A DNA stretch of 9,734 bases from Clostridia bacterium. GTDB taxonomy: Bacteria; Bacillota_A; Clostridia; UBA1212; UBA1255. Positions 350 through 9,734 of this stretch are shown one piece after another; the stretch's first letter is position 1, and each line of letters begins with the position of its first letter. Both the position numbers and the translations under genes were made by a program. The notes under the pieces are model-generated. The model had not been told where the DNA came from and searched no databases. It worked only from the letters and a program-made list of their open reading frames with translations. The stretch spans positions 1 to 9,734 of the forward strand of contig JAFWZH010000077.1 of NCBI GenBank assembly GCA_017522515.1, written 5' to 3'.

Positions 350-505
350 AACATTTCGTCAAATAATTTTACTTGACGAAATTCAAGCAGAACACCCTTG
401 GATTTTAGTTAATCGCCATTTGCTCGTCATTTTTTGATTGAAATCATATTCATTTAACATAAGAAAAAGTGAGATTGACTAAATTTCAATGGGCACTTTT
501 TAATT
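350..505 (+). repeat. dispersed intergenic repeat, copy 1 (fullest)
   Basis: It shares extended similarity with 9620-9734 and, in its last third, with 8236-8287. Its parts in order are: an inverted repeat ATTTCGTCAA (353-362) / TTGACGAAAT (373-382); a block beginning AATCGCCAT and continuing through GCTCGTC (411-436), nearly identical at 9678-9704; an AT-rich spacer; and a terminal hairpin (464-501). No coding frame is conserved between copies, so this looks like a non-coding mobile or structural repeat (MITE-like, or the flank of an IS) rather than a gene. The family is not recognised and the boundaries are approximate. Confidence 0.6.
464..501 (+). terminator. terminator-like hairpin at the end of repeat copy 1
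   Basis: AAAAAGTG (464-471) pairs perfectly with CACTTTTT (494-501), and inside it ATTGA (474-478) pairs with TCAAT (486-490), leaving a small internal loop and a 7-nt loop. The 3' arm ends in a T run. It lies just upstream of the operon promoter and would insulate it from read-through. In copy 3 the same stem survives only through G-U pairs (8252-8259 with 8279-8286). Confidence 0.5.
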
Positions 506-517
506 ATATAAGCGCAA

Positions 518-545
518 TTGACTAATAAACAATCTATGTTATAAT
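518..545 (+). promoter_or_regulatory. sigma-A type promoter of the three-gene operon
   Basis: The -35 box is TTGACT (518-523) and the -10 box is a perfect TATAAT (540-545), separated by 16 bp. Transcription would start near 551-553, leaving a leader of about 120 nt before the first gene. Confidence 0.7.
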
Positions 546-553
546 AAAATTAG

Positions 554-581
554 AGCTATGAAAATATATCGTAGCTTTTTT
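554..581 (+). terminator. promoter-proximal terminator-like hairpin (possible attenuator)
   Basis: AGCTATG (554-560) pairs with CGTAGCT (570-576), with one T-G wobble, around a 9-nt AT-rich loop, and runs into six T residues (576-581). It sits at the very start of the predicted transcript. It could cause premature termination, or simply protect the 5' end, because the stem is short. Confidence 0.4.
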
Positions 582-588
582 GGATGGG

Positions 589-663
589 ACTTTCTATTAC
601 AACAATTATTTATTGTACATTGAGTAAAAAAATTGTCTCCATGCCATTTGTGCAATAGAAAGT
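589..663 (+). promoter_or_regulatory. long-range inverted repeat in the leader, covering the first gene's ribosome binding region
   Basis: ACTTTCTATT (589-598) is the exact reverse complement of AATAGAAAGT (654-663). The 3' arm contains the only purine-rich stretch near the first start codon and ends at the base before a possible GTG start (664). Within the loop, ACAAT (602-606) can pair with ATTGT (612-616). The arrangement could hide the ribosome binding site. It might instead be the ends of a small inserted element. Confidence 0.4.
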
Positions 664-675
664 GTGGTTATAAAC

Positions 676-1032
676 ATGACAGATTATTTGAACATTGCAA
701 AAAACATAGATAAGGAACTGATAATTAGTAGAGAAGAGAGCCTTGTCTATTTACTTTATCCGAATCCCCCTCGAAATGGAAATCTTTTATTTGAAGAAAA
801 AGGAAATACACTCATCTTCTGGTCAAATGGATATAAGGAAATGTGTTTAAGAGATATACTTGCCATTATTGAAGCCAATACAGATTGTGACATTTTGATT
901 CCTTATATAGAGTCAAAAGAAGAATATGATTTATTATTATACTTAGGATATTGTCCGGTAGAGTTTACCATCGAAGACGACGACTCTTTTGTCAAAAAGT
1001 ACGGGTCAGTAATAAAAAAACATGATATATAA
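676..1032 (+). CDS. small hypothetical protein, first gene of the operon
   Basis: A soluble, acidic protein of about 118 residues that I do not recognise. It has no signal peptide or membrane segment. Visible stretches include YLLYPNPPRNGNLLFEE near the N-terminus, DILAIIEANTDCDILIPYI in the middle and an acidic IEDDDSF close to the end. The strand/helix alternation suggests a small alpha/beta domain. The start is uncertain: ATG 676 is chosen, but GTG 664, four codons upstream in the same frame, is possible. Neither has a strong ribosome binding site and both lie next to the leader's inverted repeat. The last 11 bases overlap the start of the DUF2156 gene, so the two are probably translationally coupled. 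The location suggests a partner or regulator of the two downstream enzymes, which is inference only. Confidence 0.7.
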   Translation: MTDYLNIAKNIDKELIISREESLVYLLYPNPPRNGNLLFEEKGNTLIFWSNGYKEMCLRDILAIIEANTDCDILIPYIESKEEYDLLLYLGYCPVEFTIEDDDSFVKKYGSVIKKHDI

Positions 1033-1891
1033 AAAACTAGAGTTAGAGGACATTCCTCAAGTTAGGAAATTTTTTAATATGGTTCATACACGTTCTTGCG
1101 ATTATTCAATCGGCGGAATGTTTATGTGGCGCGATTACTATCGTATGGAGTATTCGATAGAAAATGGTGTGTTTTTTTCAAGGCTTTATGACAAGAACGG
1201 AAAATGTTACTACAACATTCCAATTGGCCAAGATATCAAGCGATGCATAAGAAAATTGATCAAGGAAGAAGGAAAGCTTGCTTTTTGTACTGTTCCTGAA
1301 AGCATGCTAGAAGTATTTAAATCTCTTGATTTTACAATTAATGTTATAGAACAGCCTGATTTTGCAGACTATTTATACAATTCTAGTGATCTTATTCATC
1401 TAAGAGGAAAAAAATTAAGTAGCAAAAGAAATCAGATACATCAATTTCTTAGAGAAAACGATTTGTGGTCTTATGAGACAATATCAGATGATATTATTCA
1501 AGAAATAAAAGTCTTTTTAACAACCGAATACAAGATAGCTAATAATGCTAAAGATTTTGAAATTGAAGAAGAAAGAAAAGTGCTGGAAGTGCTCGATAAT
1601 TATAACATTTATAATTTTGTTGGTTCAGTTCTAAAAGTTGATGATAAAATAGTCGGTTTTTCAATCGGCGAGATTGTTGGTGATACTCTGTTTGTTCATA
1701 TCGAAAAAGCTAATAATACAATTAAAGGAGTATATCAGATGTTGGTAAATTTATTTGCGATAAAATATTCAAGTGATAAAATACAATTTATCAACAGAGA
1801 AGAGGATATGGGAGATGTAGGCTTAAGGATTTCAAAAAAGTCATATCATCCTGTGATGCTTATTAATAAATATATTGTCGAGGTTGAGTAA
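1022..1891 (+). CDS. DUF2156 (phosphatidylglycerol lysyltransferase C-terminal-like) protein
   Basis: A 289-residue cytosolic protein resembling the stand-alone DUF2156/COG4866 family, which shares the tandem GNAT-like fold of the lysyl-phosphatidylglycerol synthase catalytic domain. Family-like motifs are CDYSIGGMFMWRDYY (residues 26-40), DLIHLRGKKLSSKRNQIHQF (123-142), GFSIGEIVGDTLFVHIEKAN (212-231) and FINREEDMGDVGLR followed by KKSYHPVMLINKY (256-284). The length fits the stand-alone family; the integral-membrane flippase part of full-length MprF is absent. Known relatives of the fold use aminoacyl-tRNA or acyl-CoA donors, but the substrate of the stand-alone form is not established. The start overlaps the preceding gene by 11 bases without a clear ribosome binding site. 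The stop overlaps the next start (TAATG), so translation is likely coupled through all three genes. Confidence 0.8.
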   Translation: MIYKKLELEDIPQVRKFFNMVHTRSCDYSIGGMFMWRDYYRMEYSIENGVFFSRLYDKNGKCYYNIPIGQDIKRCIRKLIKEEGKLAFCTVPESMLEVFKSLDFTINVIEQPDFADYLYNSSDLIHLRGKKLSSKRNQIHQFLRENDLWSYETISDDIIQEIKVFLTTEYKIANNAKDFEIEEERKVLEVLDNYNIYNFVGSVLKVDDKIVGFSIGEIVGDTLFVHIEKANNTIKGVYQMLVNLFAIKYSSDKIQFINREEDMGDVGLRISKKSYHPVMLINKYIVEVE

Positions 1892-4119
1892 TGAGAATAA
1901 CAACATTAAAACCAAATGCATTTAATGATGTATTAGAATTATTTTATAAATCATTTAATAATGATACTTATTATCGTGATTTAATAGAGTCAAACAAAGT
2001 AAGTTCAATATATGAAATACGTGACGTCTTTTCACAAGCCATTAATTATTGTTTGCAGGAAGAAGGGTTCTCATATGGTATTTATAACGACAGTGAATTA
2101 ATAGCTTTTATACTAACCACAGATTTCAAAAAACTTTGTCGGGACAAAGAAATGTATAATTTCGTTTTTGGAACTGACACTTTAGATAAAAATAGTTTAA
2201 GAAAAGAAAAACTCCAAAAAAAACTATCAAATATCAAGAATGGAAAGTATGATACCATTTATTGTTTATCAATAGCTGTTGCTGAAAGTTACAGAAACAA
2301 AGGCATCGCATCACTTCTAATTGATAAGATTATTACCCTTTTTGCCGAATACCATATTATCACTGATGTATCAAATAAAGATTCCTTAGGCATATATAAA
2401 GCCAGGAACTTTAAGCAAGAAGATATCGACGATCACTACTTTTTTTTGCATAGAAGACCAACTCAAAAAAAGTTTTCTATCAATTTTCAACAAACTGTTA
2501 ACATTGCCTTACATAGCAGTAACATACTTGATGCTCTCAACATCAAGTACACAAAAGAAAGATGTGTTTATATAGAGGACATTGCTAAGAAAGACGATTT
2601 CTTTATTAATAAAAAAAACAATATAGAAATAGCAACAATATATAAATTGGATTATGATGATTTGCTGAAATACCAAAGATATGTTGGGATTTCCGATTTT
2701 AAAGAATATCTAAGCTACTTTTTTATATACTATGTACGATTCAGAGAGACTAAATATAGTGGGCAGTATAACAAAGATGTTTTTGACGCTTTAATTGAAG
2801 AAAGAAAGAGAGAATGGGATGTCATTCCAGATGTTTATGTATCTATTCCGTGTACATATTCAGACATTTCGAGAATACAAAATTTTGAGGGTAACACGTA
2901 TTCCGATTTAGTTTTAGCAAACCTTGATTTTAGAACAAAATACGAGTCCGGTATTATTTCTCGCGAAAATGTCAATTATGACGAAACCAGCATTTTTAAA
3001 AACAGAATCAAAAGAATATATTTAGGGACAGTTTCTGTTTGTTTGTGCGATGAAAACAATATAGACCACGTAGAAGATTATTCATTAATAGGGTCTCCGA
3101 ACCACGTAGATTTATACTTATCTTATGATATTAAAAGTGAGTGTGCAGTTATTGGACTATATTCGATTTCCTGTCCGTTTATCATAAGTATTTTTTTTGA
3201 TAATATAATTCGAAATCAAATTATAGTCATAAACAATGAAAAAGAGGAGAATCTATACGATTATTTGTATAGGACATTTAAGATATCAAAAAGCGGCTCC
3301 CCAAAAATATATTCCGTTATACCAAAGAGTAGACAATGCTTATCGGACGAACAGATAGGATCATTATTATCGGGTGAAACCATATATTCTGATGGTGACA
3401 ATTTCGGAAAAATTATAGATAAGGATATCATGGATGCTGTAAACTCAGAATATGGAATGGGGCAGTATAATAGAGGATTTGTATTGGCATATCTGAATGT
3501 TGTTCTGCAATTCAGCGACAATCAAAGATCATCCATCGAAGATAGAATATACGAAGCAATGATAACACAGTTTTATATCGAACTTATTATGTTTGAGGAA
3601 GCTGCAATTAATTTAACAGATATTGCAATTACCAAACTATTAGCTAATTCAGAAATAGAAAATACTATTTCATATTTAGAAAAAGCCGAGAAAATCAATG
3701 AAAATTATGCAAAAACCATTTGTTTTTGGGATATCAATGTTAATTATCCAACTTCACAGAAATCAATCGATATGTTACGCAATTCTTTTGCATTAAAAAG
3801 GCACCTAAAAAAAATGGAAAGAAACAAAGCCCAACTACAGGCTGTCTATGATGCAAAGTGCGAGATCATTGACAGAAAAGACTCAAAAAGGATTGATTCA
3901 TCTCTCGCTGTATTAGCTGTTCTCGCAATATTCAGTGCACTGATTGATAGTTTTGATTATATTGGTGTTTGGGCTTCTTATTTTCCGGCTAAATTCATAA
4001 AGACTCTCCAAATATTAAATTCATCAGTCATTGTTTTGATAGGTTTATATGTTATTATTCGTTTATATGGTAGTAATATGTTAAAAAGATTAAAAAGTTT
4101 AATGCACAAAAGCAATTGA
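1891..4119 (+). CDS. GNAT acetyltransferase fused to a large unassigned region with C-terminal membrane hairpin
   Basis: A 742-residue protein. Residues 1-190 look like a GNAT N-acyltransferase: LSIAVAESYRNKGIASLLID (126-145) matches motif A, with the acetyl-CoA pyrophosphate loop R-N-K-G-I-A at 135-140, followed by the usual NKDSLGIYKARNF (162-174) near the end of the fold. A typical GNAT protein would end there. Residues about 195-670 match no family I recognise; 560-665 are helical and strongly charged, resembling a stalk. Two hydrophobic segments follow (about 672-698 and 703-727), then a basic tail, suggesting a membrane hairpin with the GNAT part in the cytosol. The layout superficially recalls CorA-like stalk-plus-two-TM proteins, but no GMN motif is seen. 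The start has GAGG (1880-1883) 7 nt upstream and overlaps the previous stop. Acceptor unknown. Confidence 0.75.
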   Translation: MRITTLKPNAFNDVLELFYKSFNNDTYYRDLIESNKVSSIYEIRDVFSQAINYCLQEEGFSYGIYNDSELIAFILTTDFKKLCRDKEMYNFVFGTDTLDKNSLRKEKLQKKLSNIKNGKYDTIYCLSIAVAESYRNKGIASLLIDKIITLFAEYHIITDVSNKDSLGIYKARNFKQEDIDDHYFFLHRRPTQKKFSINFQQTVNIALHSSNILDALNIKYTKERCVYIEDIAKKDDFFINKKNNIEIATIYKLDYDDLLKYQRYVGISDFKEYLSYFFIYYVRFRETKYSGQYNKDVFDALIEERKREWDVIPDVYVSIPCTYSDISRIQNFEGNTYSDLVLANLDFRTKYESGIISRENVNYDETSIFKNRIKRIYLGTVSVCLCDENNIDHVEDYSLIGSPNHVDLYLSYDIKSECAVIGLYSISCPFIISIFFDNIIRNQIIVINNEKEENLYDYLYRTFKISKSGSPKIYSVIPKSRQCLSDEQIGSLLSGETIYSDGDNFGKIIDKDIMDAVNSEYGMGQYNRGFVLAYLNVVLQFSDNQRSSIEDRIYEAMITQFYIELIMFEEAAINLTDIAITKLLANSEIENTISYLEKAEKINENYAKTICFWDINVNYPTSQKSIDMLRNSFALKRHLKKMERNKAQLQAVYDAKCEIIDRKDSKRIDSSLAVLAVLAIFSALIDSFDYIGVWASYFPAKFIKTLQILNSSVIVLIGLYVIIRLYGSNMLKRLKSLMHKSN

Positions 4120-4225
4120 TATAGTAAATAAAGTTTAGCATATGTCAACTGTGCCCATATTCGATGATTCATTGGGATATAAACAAATTTCCTTAATAAG
4201 AAGTATCAATCCCCTATCGTCGGAT
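4120..4225. other. short spacer after the operon, no feature
   Basis: No gene and no convincing intrinsic terminator are seen between the operon's last stop and the transposon end. The best plus-strand terminator lies further on, inside the IS3 remnant (4271-4307). Confidence 0.4.
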
Positions 4226-4250
4226 GAACTGAACCCCAAATGTTGGACAG
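4226..4250 (-). repeat. terminal inverted repeat of an IS3-family (IS150-like) element
   Basis: The sequence CTGAACCCCAAATGTTGGACA, read here without its last base as TGAACCCCAAATGTTGGAC, has the typical form of IS150-group ends (TGA-CCCCAAA--GTTGGACA). It lies six bases beyond the orfB stop codon on the minus strand, as expected for the right end. No matching left end is visible near 4515. Confidence 0.65.
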
Positions 4251-4255
4251 TTTAA

Positions 4256-4515
4256 TTAAGCAACTCTTTGGGACTGAACCCTGTATTGTACAGGACTCAG
4301 TCCTTTTAGTTTGCACTTAATTCTTCTGTTGTTGTAACAATCGATATATTCCTCTATTTCTTTCAATCGAGATTGATATCGTTTCATCTGATACTGCCAG
4401 CCTTGCTTCATTAATAAACCTTCTGGACCGAACTGTTTGTATCGAGCAACCCATCACGCAACAGGTGCTTTAGAAGTTCCTATGGGGTGCACTTCAAACC
4501 TCTTCTTTTTATTTT
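4256..4515 (-). pseudogene. IS3-family transposase remnant, orfA and orfB pieces joined by deletions
   Basis: Minus strand, one frame ending at TAA 4258-4256. The order of recognisable pieces is: VHPIGTSKAPVA, then an in-frame TGA (4456-4454), then WVARYKQFGPEGL (helix-turn-helix region typical of OrfA); next QGWQYQMKRYQSRLKE (the DDE-domain DQGWQYQM motif of OrfB, its aspartate replaced by K); then EEYIDCYNNRRIKCKLKGL and SPVQYRVQS, the conserved OrfB C-terminus. Most of OrfA's end, most of the OrfB catalytic core and the segment with the SRKGNCLDNA-type motif are missing, yet the joins stay in one frame. It cannot encode an active transposase. The remnant begins about 20 bases after the protease stop codon. 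Confidence 0.8.
4271..4307 (+). terminator. strong bipartite hairpin terminator inside the IS3 remnant
   Basis: GGACTGA (4271-4277) pairs with TCAGTCC (4297-4303), and CCTGTA (4280-4285) pairs with TACAGG (4289-4294) around a TTG loop; the two stems are separated by AC/AC mismatches. TTTT follows at 4304-4307. In the plus direction this is a good intrinsic terminator and the best candidate for ending the upstream operon. On the minus strand the AC/AC step becomes G-U pairs but no T run follows. It overlaps the codons of the OrfB C-terminus (KGLSPVQYRVQSQ). Confidence 0.55.
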
Positions 4516-4534: not shown

Positions 4535-7500
4535 TTATCTCATTGTATTTACTGTCTTAAAAATGCCATTTTCAATAGTAAATACATTCCAGTATCTATA
4601 GCTATCAGATTGGGTTGAATCTACAATAAATTTCGCAATGAGTTTTGTACCGTTATATACTTCTACCGTAGCACCTGAATCAGGGAGCGAACCCGAGAAT
4701 GAATAACGATGAACTACAAATTCATATTTTCCTTCAGTTTCAACAACGAAAGTTGTTGTTTCCGGACCATAACTGTTAATGTCATCAACATCTAAATTAG
4801 CCACCTCACGACCTGTACTGTTCAAAGCCTCCTTATTTAAATAATACACATGATACGCAGAGCCGTCTGTTGTTTCACCATATAAATGTGAATCAAGGTC
4901 ATAAGGTATTCTGCCCCAACTTAAAACTACTCTGTATGTACTGCTTGTCATAACAGGAGACAACGAGCCATTTGCCACAGAGGACTCACCGCTATTGACT
5001 AACACATTAACATAACCTGTTGTATAACCTTCACAAACCATCTCGATTGTATAATATCCTGCTTCAAGTTCAAAATTAAACAAGCCTGAATTATTGGTTT
5101 TAGCGGTTTTTATAATAGTACCATTCTTCATATTAAGACCGCTTCTGACGTTCAGTGTTACATTGCTGATAGTCATTGCGCTTGTAGCACTAACAACCGT
5201 TCCGCAGACAGTTCCGTTGCCGGCCTTAACGAGTGTTGCATTTAAAATAGCAGTTTCTTCTTCAAAAACCTCTGCTACAGCAACATAACTTACATAGTCA
5301 TCTGCACTTATTTTTACTGAATAGTTTTGAGCATCAAGTAATACAGAGTACGAACCATTATTGTCTGTTTGCGTCGTATCTACAACTGCGCCATTATGCT
5401 CAAAAGAAATTTCCGCACCAACAATAGGATTGCCTTCAACATCTGTTACGGTTCCTGAAAGTGTTCCTCTTGCGCCAAAAATCTCAACCTCGTCAAAAGC
5501 TTTCTTTATAATAACGATTAATTCTTCATCAAGATTCATTTTTTTCGCAGCTTTCAACACATTGCGACGAACTGTGTAGAAATCTGATGTAGAATCATAT
5601 CCCATACTAAGAGATTTATACCATACCTTTGCGAGTGTTGTTTTAGACATACCATATTTATTCATAAGATACGCTGCGTGGTATACAAGAGAGGAATTTG
5701 TATGAACTCCGCCTCCATCTGAACTGTCAACTGTATAATCAACATAAAACGGACTGCTGAGTTTATCAGGCGCCTCATATGCTGTAGGATTAGATGCATC
5801 GCGTAATGTCATCCAATCTTCACCAAGCTGCCAGTCACCATCAATAAGACATCCAAAAATATCTGCATAACCCTCATCAATCGCACCCGTTGCATTCTCA
5901 TAAGGCAAGCCGTCACCTGTGATATAATCCACTACTCCATGAGTAAATTCGTGCGCAACAACATCGAGTGCGGCCGCTGTGCTTGTTTTCAAAGAACTGC
6001 CAAAGCTATTATCACAAAAGTTTAAAGTCTTTTTGCCTCCGTGCCAAAAAGCATTATCGTCATATAAATCATTATGAACAACAACCTTAATATTCATACC
6101 GTTACCATCAAGCGAATTTCTGTTAAGTGTATTTTTAAACCAATCAAAAGTTTTTATCATATTGGTATAAGCAGAAATCGCAGTTTCATCAGTCCACCAA
6201 TTTATTTCACTGCCAATTCTAAAGTTAGTATCAAATGCTTGATTATACATTTGGATGTCTCTTTCAATGTCTTGCATGTAATAGAAATACCAATCTGTCC
6301 ATGTAAACACAACGGGGAAACTGACTTTTTGACCAAGTTCGTTTTTACCGCTACCTGTTTCGGCAGAAACACCTGTTATATGTTTTTCAATATGAGCAAT
6401 CTCGCCTGTTTGACTATCAATAAAAATTGTCGCTTCTGTGTATTTGTTGTTGCTGTCTTCTCCTGCAACATCCATTCGGTAAGCAAATACAGGTGAATTT
6501 TCATATTCATTTATTGTGTAGTATACGAAATTAGTGCTTCCCTCAACGACTTTGCATTCACCGCCGTATTTGTTATTCGCGATTTTTTCCGCATCTTGTT
6601 GAGCTACTTTTATATTAGTGTCAATTTCAGCCAGTTTTGTTGAAGGATAAAATCCCGAGCCTAGAGAATCTGTAACGCCTGACAAATTCGCTGATACTGT
6701 AATTCTTCTTGCGTACACTTCATATCCGTTATAGACTTGGGCAAAAGTATATTCTGCACCGTATTCATCAGAGTTTACAACCACAAGCTTCAATTCATTG
6801 TAAGGATCTGTAACACCCACAATGGTACGAATACCTTGAATGGCATCTAATGCATCATCTGCATTTTCCACAACAAGCTCACTGTATTTACCTTCAATTG
6901 AAGTTACCTGCGTCTTGTCATCATTATACGAAATATCAAGCTCGCCTTCAGGATTCATATTTTCAATATCTATTACAGAACTGTTTTGAATATCATCTAT
7001 AACTCTGTTGCTCTTATGAATCACATTTAGAACATGTTGGCGCTCACATTTAGCCTCATTCTTCTCAACAAACAATGTCAAAGTTACTTTTTCGTCTTCA
7101 TTCTCAGGTCTTGTCACTTCTCCGTCTTCTGAAATCAATTCATCCGAAGATATCCATTTAAGCGACACACCGGTAACTCCTTCCAATTCAGTAGGTAAAC
7201 CAACATCGCGTGTTACATGATTAATATTATCACCTTGCTGAAAGACAATGTCGATTTGTGATGCGATATATGCTACAACAAAATCATCTATTGTTCCTTC
7301 TATCCAACCAGCATAAAGTGTCATATCCTTCACAACAGGTGTTTCTTCAAAGAGAAATATTTCCGTGTGTCCCTCATCAGCAAACCATCCCGCAAAAACA
7401 TATCCTTCTTTTACAGGTGTTTCAGGTTCGGAAATTTTTTGTCCTTCTTCAACCTCTACAGCGGCAATATTATTACCACCGTCAGTATTGAATGAAACTG

Positions 7501-8140
7501 TATATTTGTGAGTCAAATTCTCTTCAGAGACAACATATTCAACTTTAGCTTTTAGAGAGGCTTCTTCGCCATCCACTTCTATCTCTACATCTGCTTCTGC
7601 GGAATACTTTTTTGCCTTATCTTGCGCAAAAGTTTGAGTCTGAAAGACAGGAAGCATAGACAATGTTAACACCAAACACATAACTGTTGTTGCTGCAACT
7701 TTAGCTTTTTTCTTTTTGACAATAAGCACTACGATTGTTACAATCGCTCCAAGAGTGAGCACAGCACCAACAATCATCAAGATTTTAAAAAGCATAGAAT
7801 TTTCATTGCGAACTATACCAAAAGTATATGTAGCTGACATCGTTTCACCACTGCCAAGTGCTCCAAGTTTAAAATCAGCGGTGTTGTCTGATATTTCAAA
7901 TCCGTCAGCTTCAATTTCATTGACAATAATGTTTTTAATCGAAAATTGATTTTTGTTTTCCAGTAATAAATTCAACTCAATTTTCTCTCCGGATTTATAT
8001 TCTTTTTTATCAGTAGTGATATTAAATACCACCGATTCATCCGGAGTATCATTCTCGTTCGCAATTGCAGGTATTACAAATACAGCAATTGCAATTACGA
8101 CAGCCCAAAAAATAGATAACAGTGTTCTTGTTTTTTTCAT
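4535..8140 (-). CDS. multidomain cell-surface M4 (thermolysin-like) zinc metalloprotease
   Basis: A 1201-residue exported protease. Signal peptide at 1-27 (likely cut at AIA|N); small beta domain 35-110; membrane segment 116-141 followed by KKKK; a second signal-like segment 148-172 ending TFA|Q; InlB B-type repeat 212-279 (GYVFAGWF, LYAGW); Ig-like domain about 285-375; FTP/PepSY-type propeptide about 440-590; M4 catalytic module about 605-890 with HEFTH at 730-734, third zinc ligand E756 in GAIDEGYAD, and catalytic H813 in DGGGVHTNS. Two carboxypeptidase-regulatory-like beta domains (893-970, 977-1062) and a YfaP/DUF2135-like domain (RVVLSWGRIPYDLDSHL, 1070-1201) follow. All catalytic residues are present. 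M4 enzymes cut peptides on the N-side of hydrophobic residues. The start is ATG 8140, with GGAGG at 8150-8146; the frame remains open to 8248 but that extension is not signal-like. Confidence 0.95.
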   Translation of the reverse strand: MKKTRTLLSIFWAVVIAIAVFVIPAIANENDTPDESVVFNITTDKKEYKSGEKIELNLLLENKNQFSIKNIIVNEIEADGFEISDNTADFKLGALGSGETMSATYTFGIVRNENSMLFKILMIVGAVLTLGAIVTIVVLIVKKKKAKVAATTVMCLVLTLSMLPVFQTQTFAQDKAKKYSAEADVEIEVDGEEASLKAKVEYVVSEENLTHKYTVSFNTDGGNNIAAVEVEEGQKISEPETPVKEGYVFAGWFADEGHTEIFLFEETPVVKDMTLYAGWIEGTIDDFVVAYIASQIDIVFQQGDNINHVTRDVGLPTELEGVTGVSLKWISSDELISEDGEVTRPENEDEKVTLTLFVEKNEAKCERQHVLNVIHKSNRVIDDIQNSSVIDIENMNPEGELDISYNDDKTQVTSIEGKYSELVVENADDALDAIQGIRTIVGVTDPYNELKLVVVNSDEYGAEYTFAQVYNGYEVYARRITVSANLSGVTDSLGSGFYPSTKLAEIDTNIKVAQQDAEKIANNKYGGECKVVEGSTNFVYYTINEYENSPVFAYRMDVAGEDSNNKYTEATIFIDSQTGEIAHIEKHITGVSAETGSGKNELGQKVSFPVVFTWTDWYFYYMQDIERDIQMYNQAFDTNFRIGSEINWWTDETAISAYTNMIKTFDWFKNTLNRNSLDGNGMNIKVVVHNDLYDDNAFWHGGKKTLNFCDNSFGSSLKTSTAAALDVVAHEFTHGVVDYITGDGLPYENATGAIDEGYADIFGCLIDGDWQLGEDWMTLRDASNPTAYEAPDKLSSPFYVDYTVDSSDGGGVHTNSSLVYHAAYLMNKYGMSKTTLAKVWYKSLSMGYDSTSDFYTVRRNVLKAAKKMNLDEELIVIIKKAFDEVEIFGARGTLSGTVTDVEGNPIVGAEISFEHNGAVVDTTQTDNNGSYSVLLDAQNYSVKISADDYVSYVAVAEVFEEETAILNATLVKAGNGTVCGTVVSATSAMTISNVTLNVRSGLNMKNGTIIKTAKTNNSGLFNFELEAGYYTIEMVCEGYTTGYVNVLVNSGESSVANGSLSPVMTSSTYRVVLSWGRIPYDLDSHLYGETTDGSAYHVYYLNKEALNSTGREVANLDVDDINSYGPETTTFVVETEGKYEFVVHRYSFSGSLPDSGATVEVYNGTKLIAKFIVDSTQSDSYRYWNVFTIENGIFKTVNTMR

Positions 8141-8186
8141 TTTAACCTCCACATTAAATTGATGTTGCTTATTTTTGTTACACTCT

Positions 8187-8212
8187 AAAAAAACACCGCA
8201 ATCTGTGTTTTT
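8187..8212 (-). terminator. hairpin with T run in the protease leader (possible attenuator)
   Basis: Read on the minus strand, AAAAACAC (8212-8205) pairs perfectly with GTGTTTTT (8196-8189) around an 8-nt loop, and the T run continues to 8187. It sits 47 bases before the protease start and downstream of the likely promoter at 8247-8274, the position of a transcriptional attenuator. The stem has few GC pairs, so its strength is doubtful. It could also terminate plus-strand transcription weakly. Confidence 0.4.
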
Positions 8213-8235
8213 CGCAATGAACCAACAAAAAAGCA

Positions 8236-8287
8236 CATCATTTTGCATGATAAAAAGTGAGAACTAAATTTCAAAGGGTATTTTTTA
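8236..8287 (+). repeat. dispersed intergenic repeat, copy 3 (terminal third only)
   Basis: Similar to the end of copy 1: ATCATTTTGCATGA, then AAAAAGTGAGA, then ACTAAATTTCAA and GGG before a T run. The hairpin of copy 1 (464-501) is kept in form: AAAAAGTG (8252-8259) faces TATTTTTT (8279-8286), pairing through two G-U pairs. The inner stem is weaker. The upstream two thirds of the repeat are absent. Confidence 0.55.
8247..8274 (-). promoter_or_regulatory. likely promoter of the M4 protease gene
   Basis: On the minus strand a -35 box TTGAAA (8274-8269) and a -10 box TATCAT (8252-8247) are separated by 16 bp. Transcription would start near 8240, giving a leader of about 100 nt that includes the hairpin at 8187-8212. 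The promoter lies within the partial repeat copy 3, so the repeat may have supplied it. Confidence 0.45.
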
Positions 8288-8403: not shown

Positions 8404-8991
8404 ATGGTTGATTATCGAGAAATCCTGAGACTTAAGAGTCTCGGATACAAAACGAAAGACATTGCATCTAGTGTTCACAGTTCCAGAAACACAGTTTCTG
8501 AAGTGTTGACTTTAGCAGGAAATCTGCATATTTGCTGGCCACTTGATGACGATGTCACCAATGCTTCCCTGGAGGCTATGTTTTATCCAGGCAGGGATAA
8601 ATCAGATGAGGATCGTCTCATTCCTGATTATCCTAAGATTCATAGAGAACTTGCCAAGAAAGGCGTTACCCTTACACTTCTTTGGACGGAATACTGTCTG
8701 GAGGCAAGTGCTGCCGGCAAGAAACCCTACATGAGCACACAGTTTAATGACAACTATCGTAAATGGGCTCGTATCACAAAGGCCACTATGCGTATTCAGC
8801 ATAAACCGGGTGACGAAATGGAGGTTGACTGGGCTGGTGCGACAATCGATATATTCGATGAAGTTACAGGCATTGCTACTCCTGCATATCTGTTTGTCGC
8901 GGTTCTTTCCTGTAGCTGTTATGTTTATGCAGAAATCTGTCCAAACATGAAGTCAGATGCTTTTATTAACTGTCATGTACATGCTTATCAA
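8404..8991 (+). pseudogene. istA: IS21-family transposase IstA, N-terminal fragment
   Basis: Residues 1-196 match the N-terminal part of clostridial IS21 transposases: helix-turn-helix about 12-37 (SLGYKTKDIASSVHSSRNTV), the segment TLLWTEYCLEA, FNDNYRKW, and MEVDWAG at 139-145 with the first catalytic aspartate D142, then AYLFVAVLSCSCYVYAE. IstA is usually about 500 residues. Here the match ends at HVHAYQ, before the second catalytic aspartate and the C-terminal region, and the reading frame then runs out of frame through istB sequence to 9036. The start is ATG 8404 with GGAGG 10 nt upstream. The product would bind DNA at most and could not catalyse strand transfer. Confidence 0.85.
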
Positions 8992-9376
8992 CGAAGGACA
9001 TCATATCATCTTAAAGGGTGCTACCGGTTTAGGTAAGACTTATATTGCATGTGCATTAGGTAATGCTGCCTGCCGGAAGTTCAAAACCGTACGATATATC
9101 AGAATGCCGGAATCGCTTGATGAATTAGCACTTTCAAAATTAGACGGAACTTTTCGCAAAGTAATTAATGCTTACTGTAAAGCCGAACTTCTTATCATTG
9201 ATGAATGGCTAATTCGAAAGCTTTCTACACAAGAAAGATATGACATTTTTGAAATCATCGAATCTATGATTCTTTGTACACAGTACAACGATGAAGAATG
9301 GTATGGACGTATTAACCCGGAATACGACGAAGGAAGTCCTATAGCAGAAGCGCTCTATGGATCGATTACCAGATAG
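8987..9376 (+). pseudogene. istB: IS21-family helper ATPase IstB, truncated and frameshifted
   Basis: In the frame one base ahead of istA, IstB sequence starts abruptly at INEGHHIILK and continues into the Walker A motif GATGLGKT (9017-9040), YIRMPESLDEL, Walker B LLIIDEW (about 9188-9208) and LCTQYNDEEWYGRINPEY. The N-terminal domain, about 90-100 residues in family members, is missing. A few residues also seem lost between IIESM and ILCTQY, where relatives carry an AST-type sensor stretch. Near 9353-9357 an extra base shifts the frame: the expected AEALMDR reads as AEALYGS and stops at 9376, while MDR appears in the next frame. It cannot be a working IstB. Confidence 0.85.
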
Positions 9377-9619: not shown

Positions 9620-9734
9620 TACATCGTCAAGTAATTTACTTGACAAAATTTCATCAAAACCCCCTTAAAATTTAGGCAATCGCCATTTTGCTCGTCGTTT
9701 TTTGCTTAAAATCATATCATTTTACATGAGAAAA
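9620..9734 (+). repeat. dispersed intergenic repeat, copy 2 (runs off the window)
   Basis: Aligned with copy 1: a near-perfect palindrome GTCAAGTAA (9626-9634) T TTACTTGAC (9636-9644), then CCCCCTTAAAATTT, then the conserved AATCGCCATTTTGCTCGTCG block (9678-9697), then AAATCATATCATTTTACATGA to the window end. The terminal hairpin present in copies 1 and 3 would follow outside the window. Confidence 0.6.

Follow-up and report, generated by a model that had tools for sequence, protein, structure and literature searches.

The stretch analysed here (the window) comprises the 9,734 nt of contig JAFWZH010000077.1 from a Clostridia bacterium, a gut-type bacterium, and carries an operon of three genes, here termed G1, G2 and G3 (Table 1). 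The initial annotation had described one promoter and three genes joined by an 11-base overlap and a TAATG junction. The promoter, the genes and both overlaps are confirmed from the sequence, the G1/G2 overlap spanning positions 1022-1032. The TAATG junction makes translational coupling of G2 and G3 likely, and comparable G2/G3 junctions are present in relatives. None of the three frames is due to chance, because G1 and G3 have relatives and G2 has a family match. The DUF2156 protein, the GNAT domain and the membrane anchor named in the same annotation are all present, as judged from profiles, a structure model and hydropathy. Taken as a whole, its interpretation, in which two acyl or aminoacyl transferases and a small partner act as one unit, is partly supported.

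Table 1. Features of the three-gene operon and their positions in the window
Feature	Position	Strand	Remark
Sigma-70-like promoter, TTGACT-16-TATAAT	518..545	+	TG before second hexamer
Possible structured leader	552..663	+	hairpin and T run, then long hairpin
G1	676..1032	+	118 amino acids; lineage-restricted small protein
G2	1022..1891	+	289 amino acids; PF09924/DUF2156 protein of 2HQY type
G2 stop / G3 start, TAATG	1889..1893	+	one base common to stop and start
G3	1891..4119	+	742 amino acids; GNAT, undescribed core and C-terminal hydrophobic hairpin
G3 GNAT domain, residues 1-190	1891..2460	+	
Acetyl-CoA-type loop RNKGIA, residues 135-140	2293..2310	+	
G3 core, residues 195-664	2473..3882	+	mixed alpha/beta, then long helices
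Hydrophobic helix 1, residues 670-688	3898..3954	+	
Hydrophobic helix 2, residues 705-723	4003..4059	+	

The central result is that G2 and G3 form a recurring coupled pair, the core of an otherwise non-conserved trio. A protein search with G3 scored 7995 candidates and listed 21 relatives; 21 genomes or loci (designated by L numbers) were fetched because they carry G3, as found by a scan with the G3 alignment. Whole-genome searches of these 21 revealed a G2 match (E <= 1e-10) in nine, once in each and always near G3. G2 lies directly upstream of G3 in eight of them (L001, L004, L011, L012, L013, L014, L018, and L019), whereas in L016 one gene separates the two; the short contig of L020 contains no upstream sequence. 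Seven of the eight direct pairs overlap or are separated by a single base: by mechanically called starts, on which all these lengths rest, the overlap is 4 bases in L011 and L018 and 10 bases in L012, L014, and L019, and the gap is one base in L001 and L004 and 10 bases in L013.

The two proteins have also diverged in parallel. A G3 tree of 26 rows and a G2 tree of 40 rows both divide the 11 paired loci into three identical groups, formed by the window, L001, L004, L011, and L018; by L012, L013, L014, and L019; and by L016 and L022. The G2 and G3 distance matrices of these pairs are correlated with a Mantel r of 0.96, a value that includes shared species history and was not reached in any of 10,000 permutations. 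The place of L013, a contig of a Bacteroidota metagenome-assembled genome (MAG), is supported at 80/53 by the G3 tree and at 92/79 by the G2 tree; it could reflect misbinning or the joint transfer of both genes. The G3-linked G2 proteins, together with three unlinked ones (L066-L068), are separated by a 100/100 branch from 26 other clostridial DUF2156 proteins.

G3 is rare. It was found in one of 391 genomes drawn from the class, namely the centre genome, and in 2 of 400 drawn from the family, both already in the set. DUF2156 relatives of G2 occur in 123 of 216 genomes of the class, and among the 30 best-scoring of these places, viewed with about 1.5 kb on each side, G3 accompanies the centre genome's alone. 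Together with the restricted G1 and the insertion-sequence remnants downstream of the operon, these frequencies would suit an explanation by chance, in which an ordinary DUF2156 gene has come to lie beside unrelated accessory genes in a mobile, decaying region. Against it stand the adjacency of G2 and G3 in three tree groups, spanning Bacillota and one Bacteroidota MAG contig, their mostly overlapping or abutting junctions, and their matched distances. We consider chance very improbable; it is largely refuted for G2-G3, though not for G1.

Five relatives of G1 were identified, all of them close (75-99% identity), in a protein search whose 7 candidates imply limited sensitivity. No G1 relative is encoded in the 21 G3 genome loci, in eight distant loci described below, or in L022, and none was found in viral_contigs or phages. 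Thus, the claim that all three genes work as a unit is supported, in a genomic sense, for G2 and G3, given their linkage and matched distances, and is not supported for G1; rare adjacency of homologues had been named as evidence against such a unit, and adjacency was found for G2 and G3 and not for G1. As far as seen, G1 appears to be an addition of the window's lineage, perhaps a lineage-specific accessory. Pfam, NCBIfam and PADLOC contain nothing that matches it at E up to 1, and an alternative GTG start at 664 would lengthen it. By eye, G1 had looked plausible as half of a DUF2156 or GNAT domain. Neither idea survived comparison: the hhalign score against G2 resembled those of column shuffles (34 of 100 as high) and of the reversed alignment, and profile comparison with G3 gave a probability of 0.2%. 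The structure model of G1 is poor, with a predicted local distance difference test score (pLDDT) of 57.6, and its fold matches, metallo-beta-lactamases with a best E of 0.042, were judged not meaningful.

G3 combines an N-terminal GNAT domain with a large core and a C-terminal hydrophobic hairpin. The N-terminus matches the GNAT family PF00583 with an E of 4.1e-8, and at E up to 0.1 the same family is recovered in all 21 members. The acetyl-CoA loop motif of GNATs is Q/R-x-x-G-x-G/A; with S or C allowed at the last place ([QR]xxGx[GASC]), it is present in 81 of the 95 near relatives of G3 scored. In an AlphaFold2 model of mean pLDDT 83.6, both C-terminal hydrophobic segments are drawn as helices. 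A third hydrophobic stretch, residues 418-436, is modelled as a strand plus a helix and was left out of the membrane-spanning segments. Among near relatives of at least 700 residues (95 of 107 rows), the last 120 residues hold two hydrophobic segments in 44 and one in 51, counts that depend on the threshold used.

The core, about 470 residues long, matches no Pfam, NCBIfam or PDB sequence significantly. The PDB fold lists for the whole G3 model were filled by the GNAT domain, so the core was barely tested by them. Its long helices and the C-terminal hairpin had raised the idea of a CorA protein, which is not supported: the core profile search contained no CorA match, and comparison with profiles of the CorA family PF01544 gave probabilities of 0.1-5.8%, in an imperfect CorA set that held a wrong-frame row (L051). 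Matches of one G3 member to SLATT_5 (0.024) and of the core profile to 2czc (0.037) were taken as chance.

Among known anti-phage defence proteins, PADLOC gave no family for G1, G2 or G3 at E up to 1. A GNAT toxin-antitoxin pair consists of a small GNAT toxin and a gene for a DNA-binding antitoxin; G3, with 742 residues and a membrane part, is unlike such a toxin, and G1 is without a family match. G3 has no relative in viral_contigs or plasmids. In phages there is one unannotated record, MT836542, which is described as UNVERIFIED and in which no phage gene was recognised by eye; for these reasons it was not accepted as showing that phages carry the gene. A distant-branch protein had no relative in phages. 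The best viral fold match of G3 is a 184-residue acetyltransferase with 30% identity, aligned over the GNAT domain only.

G2 matches PF09924, the former DUF2156, over residues 20-286 of 289 (E 6.8e-38; 130.9 bits against a cut-off of 27.5). It also matches 2HQY at near full length (residues 3-286), with E values of 2.2e-37 for the single sequence and 2.1e-68 for the profile. At E up to 10, the G2 profile retrieved 2HQY alone from the PDB and no MprF structure. 2HQY (BT_3689) is reported to have acetyl-CoA bound at the active site, and for H. pylori HPB8_1270, which belongs to the same family, an acetyltransferase function is considered most likely (PMC10700544). Both are DUF2156 proteins with two GNAT domains, and the passage concerned mentions no membrane-anchored GNAT partner for either (PMC10700544); the likeness of G2 concerns 2HQY, with which, and not with HPB8_1270, it was compared. 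For other PF09924 members, two papers give aminoacyl-tRNA as the donor (PMC9437257, PMC5898192). G2 is a predicted acyl-CoA-dependent acyltransferase, with acetyl-CoA a likelier donor than aminoacyl-tRNA because G2 is kin to the acetyl-CoA-binding 2HQY and its profile finds no MprF structure.

VlmA, a protein of azoxy biosynthesis, uses seryl-tRNA. The initial annotation leaned towards an aminoacyl-tRNA donor. Under that proposal, G2 would resemble MprF in transferring amino acids from aminoacyl-tRNA to a lipid or peptide, with the GNAT protein as helper. Family membership agrees with it, since PF09924 is described as the MprF synthase family (PMC9437257, PMC11630815, PMC5898192) and as including VlmA (PMC9379638). 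Likewise, a lysyl-tRNA synthetase gene (4e-177) lies directly before the DUF2156 gene in L016, at positions 1469-3394, which as far as the neighbours were read is the sole such case in the nine paired genome loci. The synthetase gene points towards an aminoacyl-tRNA donor; kinship points away from it. The PF09924 domain that G2 has in common with MprF (LPG synthase) is C-terminal there and preceded by an N-terminal flippase, whereas G2 has neither a flippase domain nor a hydrophobic segment (highest 19-residue hydropathy 1.24). The reported acetyl-CoA in 2HQY (PMC10700544) and the lack of any MprF structure among the profile matches weaken the proposal further, and we regard it as improbable.

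Among DUF2156 proteins that are not linked to G3, association with GNATs also occurs. L067 and L068 encode single proteins in which PF09924 is followed by Acetyltransf_3. An Eis-like GNAT gene lies downstream on the same strand in 10 of 29 unlinked DUF2156 loci, at distances from a 4-base overlap to 113 bases. These Eis-like pairs have the gene order of G2-G3; they differ in belonging to another DUF2156 clade and in their GNAT partners, which instead of the G3 core have SCP2 domains and, for the most part, PF17668 (PF13527 and PF13530 in 10 of 10, PF17668 in 9 of 10). The remaining 17 loci, whose neighbours were read by eye only, have neither a GNAT fusion nor an Eis-like neighbour. The fusions and the Eis-like neighbours therefore lend independent support to two acyltransferases acting as one unit. 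In four of the 10 loci (L069, L071, L078, and L086), a gene of Mur-ligase type, whose product we take from its sequence to be cyanophycin-synthetase-like, precedes the DUF2156 gene by 39-106 bases; two of these proteins were scanned and contain the Mur ligase middle and C-terminal domains. As for the claim that no described system has this set, the literature search, outside which most subscription journals lie, found no description of the G2-G3 pair or of the G3 core.

In a sister clade (L015, L016, L017, and L022), all four G3 proteins lack the acetyl-CoA loop, so that their GNAT is degenerate, and G3 is immediately preceded by an Amidohydro_2 gene. L016 and L022 carry the genes for DUF2156, amidohydrolase and G3 in that order. 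This arrangement suggests that the GNAT step is exchangeable for a hydrolase in that clade.

A more distant branch was reached with a profile of the G3 core: of two family samples, one of 348 genomes contained 5 with such proteins and one of 250 contained 2. A profile of the distant proteins themselves matched in 4 of 180 genomes, three already known, and so added one more. In six of the eight loci, the protein is a single frame of 629-748 residues with the same layout as G3; in L097 and L100, GNAT and core are separate open reading frames. The distant and near families align over columns 352-729 of 795 with a probability of 99.9% (E 2e-31). PF00583 touches the N-terminus in four of the five distant proteins scanned, twice above the cut-off, and all five for which hydropathy was computed have a C-terminal hydrophobic segment.

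Most of the distant genes lie near genes for polyamine uptake. The spermidine/putrescine uptake genes potABCD are present in six of the eight loci (L095, L096, L099, L100, L101, and L102), and potD is the gene just before the G3-like gene in five; in L096, four genes on the opposite strand lie between them. PotD of L061/L102 matches spermidine/putrescine-binding proteins with E values of 4.5e-68 and 2e-49. Compared with the near family, the linkage is enriched both for pot genes at the locus (6/8 versus 0/21; Fisher p 5.9e-5) and for potD directly upstream (5/8 versus 0/20; p 5.7e-4), in an uneven comparison of distant loci of 14.7-18 kb, some of them close kin, with near loci of 4.1-14.2 kb. 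A ThiT-like gene for an S-component of the energy-coupling factor (ECF) type follows the G3-like gene in six of the eight loci (L095-L099 and L102). L095, L099, and L102 show one gene run: a helix-turn-helix (HTH) regulator, potABCD, the GNAT-core membrane protein, and the ThiT-like S-component. The ThiT-like proteins of L035 and L039 score 39 bits against an NCBIfam thiamine cut-off of 108, and their substrate may therefore differ from thiamine.

These neighbours speak for a sensor or transport component, whose G3 core would be part of a channel, or a membrane receptor, for some cationic solute; the GNAT-like domain would read the ligand or acetyl-CoA, and G2 or the amidohydrolase would serve as output enzyme. 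The acetyl-CoA loop is missing from all five distant proteins scored, as it is from the amidohydrolase clade, which also speaks for such a role. The window's branch, however, mostly keeps the loop, and no CorA channel kinship was found with the CorA set available. In our opinion, a sensor or transport role is rather unlikely.

The reading that we favour, tentatively and without thinking it probable, is that G2 and G3 together use acyl-CoA to modify a small cationic amine on the cytoplasmic side of the membrane. Sequence shows the pair and its architecture; the predicted donor rests on kinship. The two proteins would be made together as one modification unit. From the model and the positive charge of its flanks, the hydrophobic hairpin is predicted to face the cytoplasm on both sides, which would place GNAT and core on the inner side. 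Binding or sensing of the amine, most likely a polyamine or a close analogue, would fall to the core, and its acylation to the GNAT domain. A further transfer, to that acceptor or a related one, would be made by G2, and G1 may be a lineage-specific accessory. In the sister clade, the unit would hydrolyse and not acylate, because the cofactor loop of the GNAT is gone and G3 has an amidohydrolase gene immediately before it.

The small cationic amine is the weakest step of this proposal, because it was drawn from the VIA fold rows and from the neighbours of a distant branch whose GNAT is without the loop. The VIA rows for the G3 model are led by small-amine acyltransferases, matched over the GNAT domain only: the PBCV-1 polyamine acetyltransferase A654L (3qb8) and puromycin, dopamine, agmatine, and polyamine N-acetyltransferases. 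From these, G3 differs by about 550 further residues and two hydrophobic helices. An alternative to an amine is a protein acetylation module, in which G2 and G3 acetylate lysines or N-termini and the anchor restricts the targets to membrane proteins. The leading VIA rows speak for the amine; the PDB sequence matches of G3 are mostly protein-type N-acetyltransferases (E 0.009-0.5), and in the Foldseek order first place goes to an uncharacterised acetyltransferase of S. aureus and sixth place to the protein acetylase Ard1. We find protein acetylation doubtful.

It should be noted that several observations, including those Foldseek and PDB results, weigh against the favoured pair and its amine. 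The VIA rows within about 1 Z are tied. A search for PotD matches, the one polyamine gene searched for, found none in the 21 near-family loci, the window or L022, and the pot comparison with the distant branch is uneven in locus length and kinship. The loop absence in the distant proteins means that the distant GNAT may not be an enzyme, and that its role need not transfer to the window's branch. Moreover, 12 of the 21 G3 genomes have no G2 match, and G3 therefore does not need G2. The Mantel correlation carries the species history already mentioned, and a single clade of the 11 G3-linked G2 proteins is weakly rejected (approximately unbiased test, p-AU 0.035), the three unlinked DUF2156 proteins falling among them.

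A wider reading, which we hold to be doubtful, is that G3 and the distant branch constitute an undescribed superfamily of polyamine-handling membrane-anchored GNATs. One branch would be an extra potABCD component that reads the imported amine; the window's branch, with its acetyl-CoA-type DUF2156 protein, would acylate the amine at two positions; and in a third branch an amidohydrolase would replace acylation. If so, gut Clostridia could make di-acylated polyamines at the membrane.

A large conserved region of a membrane protein, without a named family, recurs with acyltransferases and, in the distant branch, with polyamine uptake. This recurrence suggests that a mode of modifying or sensing small cationic amines has until now escaped notice. 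Were the substrate a polyamine, G3 would give direct access to the ways in which polyamines are acylated, sensed or trapped by gut bacteria, and the relatives of G2, common in Clostridia and little studied, would gain a testable function.

ECF-type genes also occur near some G3 genes of the near family, possibly by chance. In L012, G2-G3 is followed by a gene for an HTH_11/3H-domain regulator and then, read by eye, by an S-component-like membrane gene; the regions downstream of G3 in L014 and L019 resemble it. In L005, a QueT gene lies divergently before G3.

The promoter at 518-545 is the sole 11-of-12 promoter-like site within 400-4300, a range in which the 23 promoter-like sites in total do not exceed the chance mean of 23.6. 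In the leader, the long hairpin pairs the AGAAAG upstream of the G1 start and would hide it. The predicted fold of 552-690 (-28.2 kcal/mol; z -1.77; 9 of 200 shuffles equally low) is weak evidence for such a structure; Rfam gave no match for this segment, and a terminator scan made no call at the hairpin and T run.

The rest of the window bears traces of mobile elements, with insertion-sequence remnants downstream of the operon, one on either side of a peptidase gene. This gene (4535-8248, reverse strand) encodes a large surface-type M4 metallopeptidase with List_Bact repeat, atrophied immunoglobulin, and carboxypeptidase-regulatory domains. On its one side, at about 4225-4440 on the reverse strand, the end of an IS3-type transposase was read by eye; on the other, an IS21-type remnant (8404-9376, forward strand) contains an IstB match (3.7e-21) and an IstA-like open reading frame with a sub-threshold rve match. 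A dispersed direct repeat occupies intergenic positions 368-502, 8238-8287, and 9635-9724, its pieces being 80-88% identical.

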